Below, piece after piece: positions 18,165 to 25,746 of a DNA stretch of 64,000 nucleotides. Below the pieces are notes generated by a model. It was not told where the DNA came from. It saw nothing but the letters and a program-made list of their open reading frames with translations, and made no database searches. Source of the DNA: Collinsella aerofaciens (GTDB lineage: Bacteria > Actinomycetota > Coriobacteriia > Coriobacteriales > Coriobacteriaceae); NCBI RefSeq assembly GCF_963360655.1, contig NZ_OY725717.1:744001-808000 (forward strand), given 5' to 3'. Each line of letters starts with the position of its first letter. Within the stretch, counting starts at the first letter, position 1. A program made the position numbers and the translations under genes.

Positions 18165-19076
18165 ATGATTAAGACAATGTACGTCCGCAAAGATCGCCCT
18201 AAGGACATTTTTCCAAAGAGACTCAGCGGTTTGATGGAAAGCTATGAAATAGAAAAGGGGCGCAGAGGCATTAGCAATATCGGCCTTGCGCGTCTGCTCT
18301 ATCAAAAGCGTAACGGTGCCGATGATGCCTCGCTAGCCGATGACCGCTATGCAGTGGAAAGGGAGAACGGCCGCAAGGCGATTGCGAGAAAGATCAGCCG
18401 ATTTCGAAAAGGAGATCAGTTTCCTCAATGGGATGACCTCGTAGATCTGGCTGACATATTCGGAAAGCCAGTAGGTTTTCTCATCGGGGAGACCGATTGT
18501 GATACGTACGAGCTCCAAGATATTGCTGACTTCCTTGGTCTCAGCGGCGAGGCTGTTCTGTCCATCGAGCGTATGACGAGAAAAGTTAGTGCGGAGTGGC
18601 TTCCGGAACAGTCTGGCGGCAACGGCGGAGACCATGAGGAATGGGAAAAATACCTCGTGAATGATATGGTCGCGAAGGCGAATGCCGAGCCAGAAGCTTG
18701 CAGGGCAGTGCTCAATCGAATGCTGACCGCAGCAGCGTTTAAAGACCTTGTGCTCTGCCTGTCTGAGGTCGGCGATGCCCAATACAATCTGCTTATGGAA
18801 CGCATTGCAAGTGCGGAAATAGAACTGAGAGACGAAGACGTACTCAGTGACAACCACCCAGACTCCATCATGGGGCAAATGGCGGCAAAATCCCGATTCA
18901 GGGATGCTGCAACACGCCTGCAGGAAGCGGAAAATGCGGTGAGGTCCAGCAGGTATGCAGCTTATGAATGCCATGTCCGCATCGTTGATGAAATGTTCTC
19001 GGATATTACCCAGACTGACGCAAATACCGTAGCCAAAGAGCATGTCAAGCAGAGACAGTCAGGTAACCAGGCGTAG
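18165..19076 (+). CDS. Cro/CI-type HTH regulator with long helical C-terminus
   Basis: The 303-residue protein has an N-terminal region (about 17-115) that looks like an XRE HTH stretched by an insert: IGLARLLYQKR, then KAIARKISRFRKGDQFPQWDDLVDLADIFGKPVGFLIGE, the usual end of a phage/ICE-type repressor HTH. The rest is a charged helical domain of unknown fold. The first ATG has AGGA touching it, and the ATG at 18,177 is possible. It faces away from the small membrane protein, with an inverted repeat over the promoter. It probably regulates island genes. Targets are unknown. Confidence 0.65.
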   Translation: MIKTMYVRKDRPKDIFPKRLSGLMESYEIEKGRRGISNIGLARLLYQKRNGADDASLADDRYAVERENGRKAIARKISRFRKGDQFPQWDDLVDLADIFGKPVGFLIGETDCDTYELQDIADFLGLSGEAVLSIERMTRKVSAEWLPEQSGGNGGDHEEWEKYLVNDMVAKANAEPEACRAVLNRMLTAAAFKDLVLCLSEVGDAQYNLLMERIASAEIELRDEDVLSDNHPDSIMGQMAAKSRFRDAATRLQEAENAVRSSRYAAYECHVRIVDEMFSDITQTDANTVAKEHVKQRQSGNQA

Positions 19077-19420
19077 CCGTCGTATCGATACGGAAGTGGG
19101 TATAAACCGTCCTGCTGCTTGCATACGTGGTTCCGTTGCCGCCCGTCAGCTTGTAGCAGTTATAGAAGCACTGCGAGTCCGAAACCCCGCTCGAAGGCAG
19201 CGCCCAGGTGGCGTCGGCGTAGATCGTCACCAGCGACGAGCACCCCGAGAAGCAGTAGGTCAGGTCGGTGAGCGCAGACGGGTCGAAGCCTCGGAAGTCC
19301 AGCTCGGCGGGCGACGAGCGCGAAGCGAACGCGAACCGCACGACTTGACACCTGCGAGGTTGCCCAAACCGGAGACCACCTCCAGCGCCGTGCATAAGTA
19401 GAAGAGGTGGGTCAGGTTCA
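19045..19420 (-). pseudogene. BspA-like leucine-rich repeat protein remnant
   Basis: The last 80 or so residues (LDFRGFDPSALTDLTYCFSGC, then a CFYNCYKLTGGNGTTYASS block and the end PGYLTVSA) match the C-terminal repeats of BspA/DUF285-like proteins, which in gut Actinobacteria occur on surface and prophage tail-type proteins. Upstream the repeat continues in another frame (HLFYLCTALEVVSGLGNLAGV), so a single-base indel near 19,340 has broken it. It overlaps the end of the convergent regulator by 32 bp. It joins the coiled-coil remnant at 19,418. The present form is very unlikely to be functional. Confidence 0.6.
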
Positions 19421-19711
19421 TGGTTGCGAACGTCGCCATGTCTGCCGCGAAGGCGATGCGCTCATCGGCCGCCTGGCCTTCACCTGCTGGATTTCGTCGC
19501 GCAGGGCGTCCGCCACCTCGGCGCTCTTGGCAGCCTCGGCCACTTGCCCCTCAAGCTCCTTGATGCGAGCCTCCTGCTTGGCGAGAAGCGCCTGGTAGCC
19601 CCTCTCCGAGTCCACTGCCTGCGGCTCTTCCGCCTGCGCGACCCCTTCTTGGCCGCCCGCCTGCGCTGCGACCTCTTCCTCGTCGTCGATGCTATGGTCG
19701 TCTCCGTCCAT
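19418..19711 (-). pseudogene. Phage scaffold-like coiled-coil protein remnant
   Basis: The start MDGDDHSIDDEEEVAAQ has AGGCAGG just upstream. It runs through an acidic Gln/Glu region into a coiled coil (LLAKQEARIKELEGQVAEAA, then ALRDEIQQVKA), the layout of phage capsid-scaffold proteins. After VKA the frame breaks. Restoring one base gives QAADERIAFA, the usual continuation, which then runs straight into the BspA-type repeat. The pair looks like two phage genes fused by deletion and then frameshifted. Confidence 0.5.
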
Positions 19712-19910
19712 GTCGGCCTGCCTTTCGATTGACATAGGCCAGCACAAACGAACCGTCCCTTAACCATGCAAATAGGCTAAAGGTCGGTCACAAAGTGAGG
19801 TCATCCAGTCCGTTCGGCAGTTTGTGACCATTAGCAAGAATTAGAGGCAACGCAACGAGCGAACGCTCGATAATGGTCTAGAATATTGGACTTGACATTT
19901 GGGAGGCAAG

Positions 19911-20108
19911 ATGGAGACTGTGAACCTTATCCTTGGAATTATCGCGTCTATCGCATCCATCGCCGCCGCCGTCATCTCGCTCCAAAACAAGCAAGAGATC
20001 AAGTCAATCAAAAAGAGTCTAAGCGACAACTCGCAGACCGCTACAGGTAAAGTTGCCACAAACGTCGTAGGCAGCAACAACTCGGCGAACATCCATGCTT
20101 CGCGATAA
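19911..20108 (+). CDS. ABC-3C system: small membrane protein / N-terminal part of split effector
   Basis: The 65-residue protein has GGGAGG four bases before the ATG. Residues about 5-27 are one hydrophobic helix (LILGIIASIASIAAAVISL), followed by a charged helix and then TGKVATNVVGSNNSANIH. That last motif is repeated as GKVATNITGDSNS in the next reading frame, which starts at 20,095 inside this gene, overlaps it by 14 bp and lies in the +1 frame. It is therefore either a translationally coupled membrane partner, or the N-terminal half of one TM-repeat-CTD effector split by a frameshift. Membrane segments are known as effector parts in ABC-3C systems. Confidence 0.6.
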   Translation: METVNLILGIIASIASIAAAVISLQNKQEIKSIKKSLSDNSQTATGKVATNVVGSNNSANIHASR

Positions 20109-20700
20109 GCCAACGCAGACAAGCCAGAGCGCAATTGGAAAGGTCGCCACGAACATAACCGGCGACTCCAATAGCTATGACTCACATGACATAAACATCT
20201 ACCAGCCCGTCTCGTCTGGCCCGCACCGGCCGCTTACAAAGACGCTCATGTATAAACTCCTGCAAATCATGATTTCGTCGACTGAGCCAACGGGCGAAGA
20301 TTTCCCCCTTACGCCTCCGCCTCCTATAGAGAAGAAGCTGATTTACAACCACGCACCGCGTTACCTAAACATCATCAACGAGTATTCTGAGAACTACGCT
20401 CGTCTCGACAGCGTGATCAAGGAATTCCCCGACAGCGAAGCCATCATCCAAAGGCTGAACAAGATGTTTGTCAATGTGGCAGACGTTCGCGATGACGGCA
20501 AGCTGTGCGTAGGAAACGGCGATGCACAGCTCAAGCTCATCGAGAACGAGATCTATAACATGATTGTGAATGACGCAAGCTTTCAGGCTGACGAGGTCCC
20601 CGAAGAAATCATCAACCAGTTCTGCGTTGCGTTGATTGCCGTTGCCGTGGCAAAATGCAGAGTCCTTCTGAGGCCAGGTGATGACGATGCTGCTGCTTGA
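20095..20700 (+). CDS. ABC-3C system effector-side protein with C-terminal ABC-3C domain
   Basis: The 201-residue protein begins with a low-complexity repeat (SQSAIGKVATNITGDSNS, ending INIYQPV) and then carries a helical domain from about 85 to the end: KKLIYNHAPRYLNIINEY, IQRLNKMFVNVADV, and the terminal CVALIAVAVAKCRVLLRP. This resembles the C-terminal domains that link effectors to the ABC-3C complex, which typically begin KI.YN and end with a helix carrying CKIL.P. No ribosome site precedes the ATG, in keeping with coupling to, or a frameshift from, the preceding frame. It is followed by the middle component and the ABC ATPase with overlapping ends. Confidence 0.6.
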   Translation: MLRDKPTQTSQSAIGKVATNITGDSNSYDSHDINIYQPVSSGPHRPLTKTLMYKLLQIMISSTEPTGEDFPLTPPPPIEKKLIYNHAPRYLNIINEYSENYARLDSVIKEFPDSEAIIQRLNKMFVNVADVRDDGKLCVGNGDAQLKLIENEIYNMIVNDASFQADEVPEEIINQFCVALIAVAVAKCRVLLRPGDDDAAA

Positions 20701-20932
20701 TCGCAATAATGAGCCGACGAGCACGGTCTATTACATCGCTGCCGCCTTGGATGGCTACATCGACCAGAACCCAGGCTTGGACGCCGGTCAACTCTATGAG
20801 GTAACGGCGAACACTCTGGTCAAGAAAGAAGTGAGCTACGACTTCTTTGTCATGGCTTTGGACTTTCTCTTCCTCCTCGGACGCGTGTCAATAGACGAGA
20901 AGGGAGGGCTACATGTTCATCAAGTCGCTTAG
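20687..20932 (+). CDS. ABC-3C system middle component (MC6-like)
   Basis: The 81-residue protein has a pattern like the small ABC-3C middle components: an N-terminal MLLLDRNN, a long helix, and the closing SYDFFVMALDFLFLLGRVSIDEKGG, matching the usual (S)Y..F..ALD.LFLLG.I....G. The ATG at 20,687 is chosen because AGGTG is six bases upstream and family members tend to start MLLP. ATG 20,681 and GTG 20,678 are alternatives. It overlaps the effector gene by 14 bp and the ATPase gene by 20 bp, which points to tight co-translation of a complex. Confidence 0.65.
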   Translation: MLLLDRNNEPTSTVYYIAAALDGYIDQNPGLDAGQLYEVTANTLVKKEVSYDFFVMALDFLFLLGRVSIDEKGGLHVHQVA

Positions 20933-22637
20933 AATTCGCAAGACAACAACTGACGAAATAGTTCGCGAGGTCTTATTCCACAAGGGTGCCAACCTCATCG
21001 TCGATACCGAGGACTCCGAATCGCACAATCGCGTTGGAAAAACAACCTTCCTCAAGCTCATTGATATCGCAATGGGCGCCAAGGACAGGAAGCTCATTTA
21101 CACAGACGCCGACACGGGCACGGTGACCGAGGAGCTACGCGATTTCATCGTCACAAACAAGATCGCCGTCGACATGACACTGACATCGGATTTTCCCGAT
21201 GGCGATGACGTGATTCTCACAATCGACCTCTTCCCGAATGGAAGGTACTACATAGACGGCGAAAAGATGGGGCAGAAAGCTTACCAGCAACGACTCAATG
21301 TCTTGCTTTTCGGGAACGAAGCGAATGTGCCCACGTTTCGCCAATTGATCAATTCATTTGTCCGCGTGTCCGTAGGCGGGGATGATAATTCCTTCCTCAA
21401 AACCGTTCCCAGCGGCAGCACATCCATCTACCGGAGTGTCTACAACGCTCTGTTCGGCATCTCAGATCCGGCGCTCGACAAAAAGCGTGACGACCTCAAC
21501 AAGGACTTGAACAAGACGCGTGAGTCCATCAAACGCTATAAGAAAGTCCAGAACGTCGATACGGTCAGCGAGCAGCAGCAGATACTTGCAGGGCTCGAAG
21601 CCGAGCATGAAGAAGTCCAGTGCAAGCTCAACAGCATCATCGACGCCGATGTCTACAGGGCCAACCGCGATGAAATCGCGGCTACACGCACCCGATACGC
21701 ATCTCTGACACTGCAACTCTCAGACATAGACTACAGGCTGCAACGAAATGAAGAGGCCCTGCAGACTGCTATGCAAGAGCGCGGTAGACAAGCCGACGTT
21801 AATTTGAGCAGACGGTTTTTCGAGGAAGTCTGTTCGATGATCCCGATGGTGAATGCAACTTTCGAAGAGATGGTCGCATTCAACAACCAGCTCTGCGACA
21901 ACAAGATTGCCTATTTCGCGAGTGTGGCAGAAAAACTGAAGGCCGAGCGTGCATCTGTGCAACGTGAAATCAGCCAACTGTCATCGCAGAACAGCCAATT
22001 CATGTCATTGGTGGAGCAAGACCTCATCGATGAGTACGAGTCGCTTCAGGCACGCCTAGTTGAGCTTTCGAGCAGTATCGGCAAATGCCGAGAAGTAATA
22101 GATACGCTCAACAGCTTTGAGGTAGAACAGACCAGCATTGAGGGAAAAATCGCATCGCTTGGCTCGTCTGATGATGGCGACGAGCCGCAATCCAACGATT
22201 TTGCTGCAATGATGCTTGCGTTTAACGCATTCTTCACTCCGCTTGCCAGGGAGTTCAACAACGAATCGCCGCTGCTCGTTTACTATGAAGAGTCGAACAA
22301 GTTCCCCGTTGCAATACGTGATACCGCTGGCTCCAGCACGGGCACACGCAAGTCACTCATCGCCGCATTTGATTTAGCGTATCAGCAGTTTGCAGAATCA
22401 AAGGGCATCAAGACTCCGCGCTTCATAGTGCATGACGTCCTTGAAAACATCGAGGGTAAGGTGTTGCGTGACATAATCGCACGCGCCAGCACAATCAACT
22501 GCCAGTACATAGTCGCAGTCCTTAAGGAGAAGCTCGATTCGTCGCTGATACCAGCCGAGGAGCAGGGTAAACTGCAAATCCTGCAGCTTTCGATTGACGA
22601 TATGCTTTTCACGCGTGGCAAAGGTGTTGCGTCGTAG
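20913..22637 (+). CDS. ABC-3C system ATPase with DUF2326-type C-terminal half
   Basis: The 574-residue SMC/RecN-like ABC ATPase has a Walker A at 39-45 (NRVGKTT), then a long coiled-coil middle (about 190-420), and the ABC C-half with SSTGTRKSLIAAFDLAYQQ (signature region) and RFIVHDVLENIEG (Walker B). The C-half matches the DUF2326 proteins that pair with middle components and effectors in ABC-3C systems (classified by Krishnan, Burroughs, Iyer and Aravind, 2020). GGAGG precedes the ATG. Inferred role: ATP-dependent sensing of foreign nucleic acid or replication complexes that releases the membrane/effector component. It ends 17 bp before the convergent stop of the 101-residue gene. Confidence 0.8.
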   Translation: MFIKSLRIRKTTTDEIVREVLFHKGANLIVDTEDSESHNRVGKTTFLKLIDIAMGAKDRKLIYTDADTGTVTEELRDFIVTNKIAVDMTLTSDFPDGDDVILTIDLFPNGRYYIDGEKMGQKAYQQRLNVLLFGNEANVPTFRQLINSFVRVSVGGDDNSFLKTVPSGSTSIYRSVYNALFGISDPALDKKRDDLNKDLNKTRESIKRYKKVQNVDTVSEQQQILAGLEAEHEEVQCKLNSIIDADVYRANRDEIAATRTRYASLTLQLSDIDYRLQRNEEALQTAMQERGRQADVNLSRRFFEEVCSMIPMVNATFEEMVAFNNQLCDNKIAYFASVAEKLKAERASVQREISQLSSQNSQFMSLVEQDLIDEYESLQARLVELSSSIGKCREVIDTLNSFEVEQTSIEGKIASLGSSDDGDEPQSNDFAAMMLAFNAFFTPLAREFNNESPLLVYYEESNKFPVAIRDTAGSSTGTRKSLIAAFDLAYQQFAESKGIKTPRFIVHDVLENIEGKVLRDIIARASTINCQYIVAVLKEKLDSSLIPAEEQGKLQILQLSIDDMLFTRGKGVAS

Positions 22638-22654: not shown

Positions 22655-22960
22655 CTACTCCCGTATCCCCACCGAGAACTCCCCGCCGAAGTTGTTCACC
22701 TCGAACCGCTCGTCAGCCACAAGTCCCTCCTTGCTCACACGGCACGCGAACGGAAACAACTCGGCCACGTCCTGCAGTTCCAGGAACGTCCGGTAACTCG
22801 ACCGGTTTACCAGCATGTCGGCAAAGACCAAAAATCGCGTAAGCTCGTCATTCAGTTCGATGGGCTCTGCAATCACGTAGTGCCCCCGCCTCACGCGCCG
22901 GACAACGCCGAACTGATTGAGCGATGCCACAATCTTTTCGGAGCCCTTCAGGATGGTCAT
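22655..22960 (-). CDS. Hypothetical protein downstream of the restriction endonuclease
   Basis: The 101-residue protein has no recognised family. It has an N-terminal possible winged-helix-like pattern (SEKIVASLNQFGVVRRVRRGHYVIAEP) and mixed alpha/beta content. Thirteen coding-like codons upstream (RDNKSVEAARKR just before the ATG) are open back to a stop but hold no start codon and no clear ribosome site, so translation may be coupled to the upstream restriction gene, or the gene may be 5'-truncated. It is third in the methyltransferase-endonuclease order, on the same strand, 38 bp after the endonuclease stop. A role with the restriction system is suggested by position only. Confidence 0.5.
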   Translation of the reverse strand: MTILKGSEKIVASLNQFGVVRRVRRGHYVIAEPIELNDELTRFLVFADMLVNRSSYRTFLELQDVAELFPFACRVSKEGLVADERFEVNNFGGEFSVGIRE

Positions 22961-22998
22961 GCGCTTGCGCGCCGCCTCAACGCTCTTATTGTCCCGGC

Positions 22999-24216
22999 CT
23001 AGTCAAGTACCCGTTGCCTCTCCTCGACCATCTCGCAGAAGCCTCCCACATCCATGAGCCATTCTTGCTGTGAAGGCGTGTAGGTGGGGAAAAGCTGGGA
23101 GGGGATGACGAGCTGGAGCTTGCTGTCACGCATGGCGTTCGTGTAGTCCACGCTCACGGCGGGCTCCAGCGTGATAAGGTGCTTACGCTCGATGCGGTTC
23201 GCCTCCTCGAGCACCTGCCTCCAGCGCTCCTTGATGGTCGTCTTCGCACCGAGCATCGTAAGGCTCGAGGAGGGGAACCCCTCATCCCGGTAGCACTCGA
23301 TTGACGGAAAAATGAAGTCCGGCTTCGACTTTCCCTCGGTGTAGGGCTGTGCGGAGTATCGGATTCCCCTACCCTTGAACAGGAACTCAAGCTGGTGCTC
23401 GAACGCTGTGCCCGCGCGGGACTTCCTGCGCTGGAAGGTCGACATGGTGGTCTTCAGAATGCCGTCGACGTCGAGCTGGCCGTTCAAATAGGGCGCAAGG
23501 TCTCTCTCAAGCAGATGGCGCTCAAACACCTTGAACAGCAATTCCTCGCGCTCGTAGCACGCGAGCAGGCTTCGATCGGGGTCATCCGCCCAGTCGAGAC
23601 CTTCAAGGGTTGAGATGGAGTACTCCGTAAAGTCGATGCCCTTCGGAAACGTATGTCCAAACCTCTTGACCATATCGTCCAAGTAGATATCCGCGCTCAA
23701 GGGAGCGCGCGTCTCGATACCAATCATGCCGAGGATGCGCGAGGCCACCGCACCGATACGGTTGCGCTCGCCCTTTGATACGGCATAGCCCGAGCGGTCG
23801 GGCTCCTCGAAGCCGAACAGCCACCTCAGCTGCGACTCGATGGTCGAGCCTTTTTTAGCGAAGATGATGAGCAGCCCGAGGTCATCGGAGTTGGCGACCA
23901 CCATGAGGTCGCCAGCGGATGCCTGCCTGATGGCGGGGTTGTCCTTGTAGTAGAGACGGTACTCGGTTCTCGTGGGATGTTTGCGGCGCGCATCGTACCA
24001 AGTCACGGTCCCGTCGCACATCTCCGGCTCCGCCTCGTCGCACATGTAGGCGAACGTGGTGCGGATGTCGCGGATGTCGTCGTCACCGAACAGCGACCTC
24101 AGCGGCAGCGTGCCGTTGAACTCGTGCTGATTACTCCTACCTGCGTCGATATCGACGTCCGCGAGGGTCTTCGAGACCGCGCCGTCGAAGTAGCTGCTAA
24201 GCGCCCCGTAATCCAT
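22999..24216 (-). CDS. Type II restriction endonuclease, EcoRII family
   Basis: The 405-residue protein is the same size as EcoRII (about 404). The N-terminal half resembles the effector-binding domain. The C-terminal catalytic domain has the EcoRII pattern: RAGTAFEHQLEFLFKGRGI, then KPDFIFPSIECYRDEGFPSS, then LTMLGAKTTIKERWRQVLEEA, which carries the catalytic Lys/Lys/Arg/Glu set, and KHLITLEP. It should cleave at a CCWGG- or CCNGG-type site. The exact sequence cannot be read from the protein. It overlaps the end of the methyltransferase gene by 20 bp, so methylase is made first from the shared transcript. Confidence 0.85.
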   Translation of the reverse strand: MDYGALSSYFDGAVSKTLADVDIDAGRSNQHEFNGTLPLRSLFGDDDIRDIRTTFAYMCDEAEPEMCDGTVTWYDARRKHPTRTEYRLYYKDNPAIRQASAGDLMVVANSDDLGLLIIFAKKGSTIESQLRWLFGFEEPDRSGYAVSKGERNRIGAVASRILGMIGIETRAPLSADIYLDDMVKRFGHTFPKGIDFTEYSISTLEGLDWADDPDRSLLACYEREELLFKVFERHLLERDLAPYLNGQLDVDGILKTTMSTFQRRKSRAGTAFEHQLEFLFKGRGIRYSAQPYTEGKSKPDFIFPSIECYRDEGFPSSSLTMLGAKTTIKERWRQVLEEANRIERKHLITLEPAVSVDYTNAMRDSKLQLVIPSQLFPTYTPSQQEWLMDVGGFCEMVEERQRVLD

Positions 24217-25369
24217 CCTGACACGCTCCCATCATGAGCTTGGCCACCGACCGTATTACAGGGACCGTCACCGAATTGCCGAACTGGCGGTAGGCCTGTG
24301 TGTCGGAGACCGGGATTATGAACCGGTCGGGAAATCCCTGCAAGCGCGCGCACTCTCTAGGGGTCAGCTTACGGGGGTTCTCGCCCTCGCCGCGCGAGAC
24401 CAAGATCTCACTACCGTCCTTATGATAGCGTGCGGAGAGCGTCCTCGTGGTGTCCGATGGAGTGATAAGACCGTAGCCGAACCCGTTGCCGGCGGCCTCG
24501 TGCTTGGCCTTGTATGCTTTCAAATATGACCACAGCTTGTCGGAGAGCACGTACCTCGCGTCCGCATCCTCCTCCAGAATCTCCGCGGCTTTCTGACCAC
24601 TGTTCGGGCAGTCGAGGTCGTCCCAAGAGAACTCCACATCGTCGCGAAAGCCAACAATGTAGATGCGCTCGCGGTGCTGGCATGTCCAACCCTTGGAGTC
24701 CAGAACCTTGTAGTGAACGTGGTAACCGAGCTCGTCCTGGAGGACCTGCATGATGACGTCGAACGTTCTGCCCCTGTCGTGACTGATCAGATTCTTCACG
24801 TTCTCGAGCAGGAACGCCTTCGGGCGCTTCTCGTTCAGGATGCGTGCAACCTCGAAGAAGAGCGTGCCCTGCGTCTTGTCTTCGAAGCCCGTAGCGCGAC
24901 CAAGGGAGCGCTTCTTGGACACACCCGCAAGCGAGAACGGCTGGCATGGAAAGCCAGCGAGCAGCACGTCGAAGTCGGGGATGTCTGAAGCGGCGACCTC
25001 ACGGATGTCCCCCGCCGGGGTTTCGCCGTAGTTCATGCGGTAGGTCTTCTGCGCAAACTTATCCCACTCGCAGGAGAAGACGCACCTGCCGCCCAGCTCC
25101 TGGAACGGCATGCGGATCCCGCCGATGCCCGCGAACAGGTCGATGAAGGTGAAGGCAGGCTTCCCCTCCCCTGCGGGTGCAAAGGGGGCGCGATGGCCGA
25201 GGGTGGAGATGTACTTCGACTCGGCTGCGGTGGGCCTTGTTTCGCCTGCCTCCCAGCGGCGCACCGTTCGCTCGCCGTTGGGGCCCATGCCTAGGGCAGC
25301 GGCGAATTCCTTCTGAGTCAAGCCGAGCTCCTGTCTCTTGGCCTTTACCTCATCTGCTGATAATTGCAT
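24197..25369 (-). CDS. DNA (cytosine-5) methyltransferase, Dcm/M.EcoRII/SsoII type with HTH
   Basis: The 390-residue protein has an N-terminal HTH (about 8-45, LGLTQKEFAAALGMGPNGERTVRRW) followed by a full C5-methyltransferase domain: motif I FIDLFAGIGGIR, motif IV GFPCQPFS with the catalytic Cys, motif VI ENVKN, motif VIII QHRERIYIVG and motif X RQFGNSV. The segments SLAGVSKKRSLGRATGFE and KTQGTLFFEVARI are those of Dcm/M.EcoRII. It protects the partner EcoRII-type site. The start at 25,369 has GAAGGTG just upstream. A 15-bp AGGACA-N3-TGTCCT palindrome lies 24 bp before the start, the type of site that SsoII-like methyltransferases bind to repress their own genes. Confidence 0.92.
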   Translation of the reverse strand: MQLSADEVKAKRQELGLTQKEFAAALGMGPNGERTVRRWEAGETRPTAAESKYISTLGHRAPFAPAGEGKPAFTFIDLFAGIGGIRMPFQELGGRCVFSCEWDKFAQKTYRMNYGETPAGDIREVAASDIPDFDVLLAGFPCQPFSLAGVSKKRSLGRATGFEDKTQGTLFFEVARILNEKRPKAFLLENVKNLISHDRGRTFDVIMQVLQDELGYHVHYKVLDSKGWTCQHRERIYIVGFRDDVEFSWDDLDCPNSGQKAAEILEEDADARYVLSDKLWSYLKAYKAKHEAAGNGFGYGLITPSDTTRTLSARYHKDGSEILVSRGEGENPRKLTPRECARLQGFPDRFIIPVSDTQAYRQFGNSVTVPVIRSVAKLMMGACQDGLRGA

Positions 25370-25392
25370 GACGCACCTTCTGGATAGATAAC

Positions 25393-25407
25393 AGGACAAT
25401 ATGTCCT
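25393..25407 (-). promoter_or_regulatory. SsoII-like autoregulatory operator
   Basis: AGGACAATATGTCCT has 6-bp arms around a 3-bp centre. The family site for SsoII-type methyltransferases is AGGACAAATTGTCCT, recalled from the literature. It is ideally placed to block transcription of the methyltransferase-endonuclease genes. The rest of the 25,370-25,746 stretch shows no gene or other feature that I can support. Confidence 0.7.
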
Positions 25408-25746
25408 CATTTTGCCACAGGGATGAAGAGATAAACTCGTCAGAATAGCAACCTTGCCCCAAACCATGGGTTTCTCACGTCTCCCACATCCGACAATCCA
25501 TGTACCACTCAAACCGCGAAGACCCATCTAACCACCGCTGCGTTCTATACGATAGTCGTTCGCCAGGACATTTTTCTGCCGCCGCAGTCATTAGTCCAAG
25601 TGAAAAGCGGCAAGCCGAGAACCTCACGCCTCTCCATCATCAATCATTCCATTTCACAAATGACGCAGCGGCGCAATTAGCAACGCGGAGCATGGAACCA
25701 TGCTATACCCGTCCAAACGATATTGTCCGCGCCCAACAGCTATCAA

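Follow-up and report, generated by a model that had tools for sequence, protein, structure and literature searches.

The stretch of DNA considered here (the window, i.e., all 64,000 nucleotides (nt) analyzed; G000:C6:744001-808000) comes from the gut bacterium Collinsella aerofaciens, the species named on near-identical contigs, and harbors a compact operon of four genes at 19,911-22,637. The genes are located on the + strand and overlap head to tail in the order transmembrane (TM) protein, C-terminal domain (CTD) protein, middle component MC6, and ATPase. All four open reading frames (ORFs) named in the original prediction, made earlier from the sequence alone, were found in place both in the ORF list and in the sequence. 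The features of the operon, with lengths in amino acids (aa) or base pairs (bp), are as follows:

19911..20108, + strand: putative TM effector protein, ORF of 65 aa with one predicted membrane helix (approximately residues 6-24), a charged stretch, and a C-terminal motif.
20022..20096, + strand: TM copy of the matched motif, TM residues 38-62, with the core GKVATNVVGSNN at 20,046-20,081; score 69 against the CTD copy.
20095..20108, + strand: 14-bp stretch shared by the TM gene (3' end) and the CTD gene (5' end), +1 frame; the ATG lies 13 nt ahead of the final base of the TM stop.
20095..20700, + strand: CTD protein, ORF of 201 aa, with the N-terminal motif on a low-confidence arm followed by a predicted helical docking domain (approximately residues 45-195).
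20113..20187, + strand: CTD copy of the matched motif, CTD residues 7-31, with the core GKVATNITGDSN at 20,137-20,172; predicted to be unstructured.
20687..20932, + strand: middle component MC6, 81 aa; PF20293 at 78.6 bits (cut-off 27.2).
20913..22637, + strand: DUF2326 ABC-type ATPase with a coiled coil, LmuB-like, 574 aa; PF10088 at 52.7 bits (cut-off 28.7).

The G+C content of the operon (~51% vs. ~60% for the surrounding region) fits a recent acquisition.

The four genes almost certainly constitute an ABC-3C system, as proposed in the original prediction, since MC6 and DUF2326 pass the Pfam cut-offs and the model of the CTD protein matches 9a6c_B; ABC-3C systems have been placed in the Lamassu superfamily (PMC10586767). 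Among PADLOC profiles, the ATPase scored 94 bits with PDC-M68B and 49 bits with LmuB; its motif VGKTTF is invariant across the three homologs described below, and its predicted structure (pLDDT 52) is confident only in the coiled coil. The CTD protein matches phrog_33256 (E 9.5e-32) and stays under the cut-off of Pfam CTD10 (14.9 vs. 28.1 bits). Its AlphaFold2 model, built from a two-sequence alignment, is of moderate confidence, with a mean pLDDT of 65.8; it is ordered from approximately residue 44 and falls below 50 over residues 1-43. The realignment of this model with residues 324-477 of 9a6c_B, part of the Bacillus subtilis YydD-YydB crosslinking model deposited in PDB-IHM, gave a Z of 11.7 over 144 residues (4.7 for the next row), which is good support for a likeness of fold, not proof of it, as such a Z can reflect a common helical arrangement. 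Chain B of 9a6c (481 residues) is taken to be YydB, judging from its length. Foldseek alone returned no significant match for the CTD model, so that 9a6c_B was singled out by the realignment alone; sequence searches of solved structures with the ATPase, MC6, and the TM protein of locus L009 (see below) gave nothing useful.

In the searches, only three lineages proved to carry the CTD, namely C. aerofaciens with its close relatives, a prophage contig of C. massiliensis (L004/L009), and a 7.9-kb plasmid of Lacticaseibacillus paracasei (NZ_CP081854, L005). The prophage locus encodes a CTD protein 42% identical to that of C. aerofaciens within the same TM-CTD-MC6-ATPase order, with an 11-bp overlap and the TM gene at L009:3814-4008; the plasmid locus displays the same order with 30% CTD identity, a 14-bp overlap, and the TM gene at L005:2818-2997, its TM and CTD genes having been independently annotated as hypothetical proteins. 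In all three lineages, the TM gene comprises 59-65 codons, and the CTD protein has 182-201 aa and no NLR domain. The peak hydropathy of the TM protein over 19 residues is 2.57 (2.57-2.58 across the three homologs). Searches in genome and viral contigs, plasmids, phages, and genus- to phylum-level genomes returned the same three lineages, Bacillota being covered via plasmid only; some of the weaker matches (L032-L049, L052-L054) were looked at as well, all of them unrelated. True relatives of the TM protein occurred only beside the CTD in the 396 genomes of the class that were searched. No unsplit TM-CTD relative was found in 1,789 genomes (98 searched with a single protein, most with the alignment A1), IMG/VR, phages, or plasmids. 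Judging from these comparisons, the TM/CTD split is old, predating the divergence of the three loci.

Two further sets of loci deserve mention. A decayed relative (L056, G044:C1:383000-388000) retains an intact MC6 gene, while its ATPase is frameshifted into two frames and no TM or CTD gene is located upstream. The operon start is DNA-identical in L051 (G796, a metagenome-assembled genome (MAG), 70% complete, from another family of the order) and L007 (a MAG of an uncultured member of Coriobacteriaceae), which reflects either recent transfer or binning contamination.

The architecture of the TM/CTD junction is retained as well. In each of the three loci, the CTD frame is +1 relative to the TM frame, the overlap spans 11-14 bp, and the ATG within it, 10-13 nt ahead of the TM stop, is kept. 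In C. aerofaciens, GGGAGG precedes the TM ATG and no Shine-Dalgarno sequence is visible upstream of the CTD ATG, which confirms the 14-bp +1 overlap devoid of a ribosome site described in the original prediction. The plasmid locus features GGAGG 10 nt upstream of the CTD ATG, and the prophage locus has AGGTG upstream. The window segment 19,911-20,130 was identical in the other copies checked (L001-L003, L006-L008, L051), which represent several independent assemblies, though some copies are the same genome in two collections. This identity, together with the same layout in two distant loci, led to the rejection of a sequencing error or a fresh frameshift. Overall, the TM and CTD proteins are, with high confidence, two separate products by design. 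The two-polypeptide membrane effector envisaged originally thus gained support, its layout recurring in the loci with 42% and 30% CTD identity, whereas its suggested origin by a recent break did not hold: the split is common to two diverged loci, and neither an unbroken frame in a homolog nor a sequencing error was encountered. The simple reading of the expression mode is that the CTD protein is likely made by coupled re-initiation, also considered in the original prediction, because the overlap ATG is conserved, the CTD frame upstream of it is short, and no slippery sequence is shared.

The other hallmark of the three loci is a matched motif of 21-25 aa, C-terminal on the TM protein and N-terminal on the CTD protein, which gives the best local alignment in each of them. 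In C. aerofaciens, GKVATNVVG (TM residues 46-54) corresponds to GKVATNITG (CTD residues 15-23), and the pair SDNSQTATGKVATNVVGSNNSANIH / TQTSQSAIGKVATNITGDSNSYDSH has 13 of 25 residues identical (score 69); the pairs of the second locus, NKMNATGNENIQVVGTGNQVN / NRQIARGNDNIQILGDNNLVN, and of the third, SNNKLISKGNNNLQQVGGKNSNG / SNNKLSAKGDSNVQQVGTTNING, score 60 and 77, respectively, vs. 19-56 for the cross-locus pairs. Whichever of the two proteins is taken first, its highest-scoring partner is the one from its own locus. The within-locus scores were reached by none of 20,000 shuffles in each locus, and the top score among 11,134 unrelated tail/head pairs, obtained from 110 crude ORFs of the window and four loci, was 41 (fitted p < 3e-7 per locus). 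The motif cores (IQVVG, IQILG, LQQVG, VQQVG, TNVVG, TNITG) follow the pattern Q/N-x-x-G.

A DNA-level duplication was discarded as the source of this match, since no repeat of at least 14 bp exists between the motif copies. Different codons are used at 8 of the 13 identical residues of the C. aerofaciens pair, and the matched segments show a proportion of synonymous differences (pS) of 0.74 vs. 0.33 for the nonsynonymous ones (pN; Fisher 2e-6). Hence, with silent changes in excess and no DNA repeat, the resemblance of the motifs is held by selection on the residues, and the repeated motif noted in the original prediction across the TM end and the CTD start is real (score 69), but only at the protein level. 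The relatedness of the motifs and their constraint are firmly established; co-evolution of the motif pairs within loci, suggested by the sequences of three loci, needs more of them. The match within each locus points to a working contact between the two proteins rather than a relic. For this reason, and since no one-frame form was found, the single TM-repeat-repeat-CTD ancestor assumed originally is disfavored. A pairing of the TM and CTD proteins via the motif is fairly probable, judging from the same alignments.

The reading that we favor, with due caution, is that of an ABC-3C system, carried by mobile elements, in which a separate membrane effector and a CTD adaptor are paired by the motif and undergo amyloid-type assembly. 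What we observe is the gene content, the conservation of the split, the match of the motifs within loci, and selection at the residue level; what we infer is that the two proteins bind each other directly, that the motif is amyloid, and that the system damages membranes and defends against phages. The DUF2326 ATPase and MC6 would operate as a sensor, probably of foreign or aberrant DNA, and the CTD protein would dock on their complex, as in other ABC-3C systems, and act as an adaptor. The membrane effector would be made as a separate single-helix protein of 59-65 aa, with the CTD then started at the overlapping ATG by translational coupling. In the TM protein, lysines come after the single, strongly hydrophobic helix. 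According to the positive-inside rule, such lysines imply that the motif should be cytoplasmic. The motif pair (~22 residues) would recruit the TM protein to the activated complex, where clustered adaptor motifs would, upon activation, serve as a template on which the TM motifs assemble in an ordered manner, probably as a cross-beta (amyloid-type) structure; the helices brought together would disrupt the membrane and stop the infected cell. By analogy with known signaling motifs, amyloid-type assembly is a serious candidate, although we place it slightly below an even chance. More tentative still is the generalization that the locus represents NLR-free amyloid signaling, in which an SMC/Rad50-like DNA-sensing ATPase fires a separate membrane disruptor via an adaptor-templated motif and lineage-specific pairs insulate the systems from each other.

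Alternative explanations differ in the part of this scheme that they replace. Programmed +1 frameshifting, which the original prediction placed at CGA-TAA-G, would yield a TM-motif-motif-CTD fusion as the effector, either by itself or in addition to the separate products, and a +1 slip could indeed join the frames in each locus, as the stretch of open CTD frame ahead of the ATG measures 8, 2, and 16 codons. It is improbable nonetheless: the TM stop contexts (CGA-TAA-G, AAG-TAA-T, and AGA-TGA-A in the three loci) include no conserved slippery site and none of known type, the P-site tRNA re-pairs well in none of them, and L009 leaves just ~5 codons for the slip. The RNA near the junction shows no unusual folding (z -0.3 to -2.0), and the overlap ATG is kept in all three loci, preceded in two of them by the GGAGG and AGGTG sequences mentioned above. 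Even less probable is a degenerative origin, in which mutation cut a single ancestral effector containing a tandem repeat, the motifs are what remains of that repeat, and the decaying system makes no use of the TM piece. The motif copies are clearly related in each locus, and a decayed relative (G044) lacking both effector genes and harboring a broken ATPase does exist, but the split is older than the divergence of the loci, both genes are open with silent changes dominating, and the survey described above revealed no unsplit relative. The TM protein matches phrog_29486 (E 8.8e-10) and, weakly, the C-terminal half of phrog_13404, annotated as 'holin' (E 1.1e-4); together with the phage genes adjoining two of the loci, the latter match would suit a holin-like or unrelated small gene placed there by chance. 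This explanation is scarcely credible for a gene that is first in the operon, overlaps the CTD gene, and shares its motif in all three settings (prophage, prophage remnant, and plasmid), and whose true relatives are confined, in the 396 class genomes searched, to the vicinity of the CTD. As a separate observation, the likeness to phrog_13404 suggests that some annotated holins may be effectors of the TM kind.

The motifs might instead pair through a conventional fold (paired strands, a heteromeric coil, or a short beta-solenoid), with no templated amyloid involved; this fits the same matching data, and a short Gly/Asn-rich motif is as typical of turns and solenoids as of amyloid signaling motifs. 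We regard this possibility as unlikely, since the position and length of the motif, the gene layout, and the Q/N-x-x-G core fit amyloid signaling motifs best. The CTD motif is also unstructured in the AlphaFold2 model, as if folding on assembly, though a poorly aligned tail would look alike. At the same time, several points weigh against motif-paired amyloid-type assembly in an ABC-3C system. No amyloid motif family was matched in the Pfam search of the motifs, and the C. aerofaciens motif possesses Asn where the other loci have Gln. The Gln/Asn-Gly motif types of L009 and L005 are close to each other (cross scores 50-56), and part of the matching could stem from the shared ancestry of the two copies plus similar constraint. 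Just three independent lineages are available, so the best possible permutation p of the 3x3 pairing test is 1/6; the CTD sequence, as indicated above, is under the CTD10 cut-off.

The genomic surroundings look like those of prophage cargo, located here in a prophage remnant, since a phrog_31118 gene sits in the same divergent position in both Collinsella loci. In the window, this phage gene is truncated (19421-19747, - strand) and lies directly upstream of the operon in divergent orientation; its C. massiliensis counterpart (L009:3076-3657, - strand) is full-length and adjoins a major head gene. The phrog_31118 gene is probably a head scaffold gene, and this position may be a cargo site conserved in a family of Collinsella phages. 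Farther upstream, 19048-19395 (- strand) encodes a C-terminal fragment of the phage-associated family phrog_29123, which a deletion has apparently fused to the scaffold remnant, and 18165-19073 (+ strand) encodes a protein of 303 aa that passes no Pfam or NCBIfam cut-off and has a weak likeness to phage transcriptional regulators (phrog_8, E 0.005). Right after the operon, a type II restriction-modification pair is located at 22655-25462 (- strand), comprising an EcoRII-C nuclease and a C5 cytosine methylase with an N-terminal helix-turn-helix; a 101-aa protein beside this pair shows a weak BrxA-like match (PADLOC E 5e-9). The context is a defense neighborhood, and the operon is probably a defense system.

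The locus shares with the ABC-3C/Lamassu systems (LmuA-LmuC-LmuB; DdmABC) a Rad50/SMC-like DUF2326 ATPase, a small middle component, and a CTD protein encoded upstream (PMC10586767). The usual effector of these systems combines an N-terminal enzymatic domain and the CTD in one polypeptide, whereas here the TM and CTD ORFs are separate in all three lineages, and the CTD protein carries only a motif N-terminally in place of a fused effector domain. The remaining intact MC6 loci of the class whose upstream gene was read (L011, L015, L016, L018, L020-L023) each encode effector and CTD as a single ORF, the effectors being SMEK-like, nuclease-like, or of other types as judged by eye. The yydB-yydC-yydD system of B. 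subtilis is similar in that MC6 matched in B. subtilis, among the control genomes, and the CTD model superposes on 9a6c chain B 324-477; it is different in that chain B is a single 481-residue polypeptide. The literature covered, which excludes most subscription journals and with them the original ABC-3C classification, yielded neither an ABC-3C system whose membrane effector is split and motif-paired nor a paper tying Lamassu or ABC ATPases to amyloid motifs.

The organization of the motif pair, in turn, recalls bacterial amyloid signaling. BASS motifs are ~25 aa long and sit at the C-terminus of the membrane protein and the N-terminus of the receptor, the two genes being adjacent or overlapping (PMC7889193, PMC12261475); their pairs comprise many divergent motif types (PMC7889193, PMC8086366). 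Matched motifs of ~20-40 aa at the effector C-terminus and the partner N-terminus, as well as adjacent or overlapping genes, are common to both, but the BASS partner is an NLR (NB-ARC or NACHT) and its membrane protein a Bell domain of ~100 residues, in contrast to the CTD partner of 182-201 aa and the single TM helix here. The PUASM pattern FxGxGxQxxGxGxF, for which amyloid behavior has been shown experimentally (PMC9815663), is likewise a short Gly/Asn-rich motif with Q-x-x-G-x-G, and the Q-x-x-G cores IQVVGTGN and LQQVGGKN (two of the three loci) resemble it. For BASS3, a proline substitution is reported to block assembly (PMC9815663). The locus cores, which match none of the PUASM or RHIM/PP kind of families in Pfam, are one residue longer between Q/N and G than RHIM. 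The RHIM core is Q-x-G, within the tetrad [I/V]-Q-[I/V/L]-G. Since its core is longer than RHIM and its partner is no NLR, the locus is not a BASS member, though by analogy it may work like one.

A review of amyloid signaling from 2021 asks whether bacterial signaling amyloids exist in NLR-independent pathways (PMC7889193). The locus represents a concrete candidate for such an amyloid, with four small genes and three natural versions bearing different motif pairs, and its detachable effector offers a simple way in which the firing of ABC-3C/Lamassu complexes could be both irreversible and cooperative. Should the motif prove non-amyloid, a separate membrane effector gene matched by a tag is still a layout that the other MC6 systems read do not show. 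The two proteins share a tag that differs between lineages and is matched within each, which suggests that they find each other via this tag, possibly as a tiny amyloid switch.

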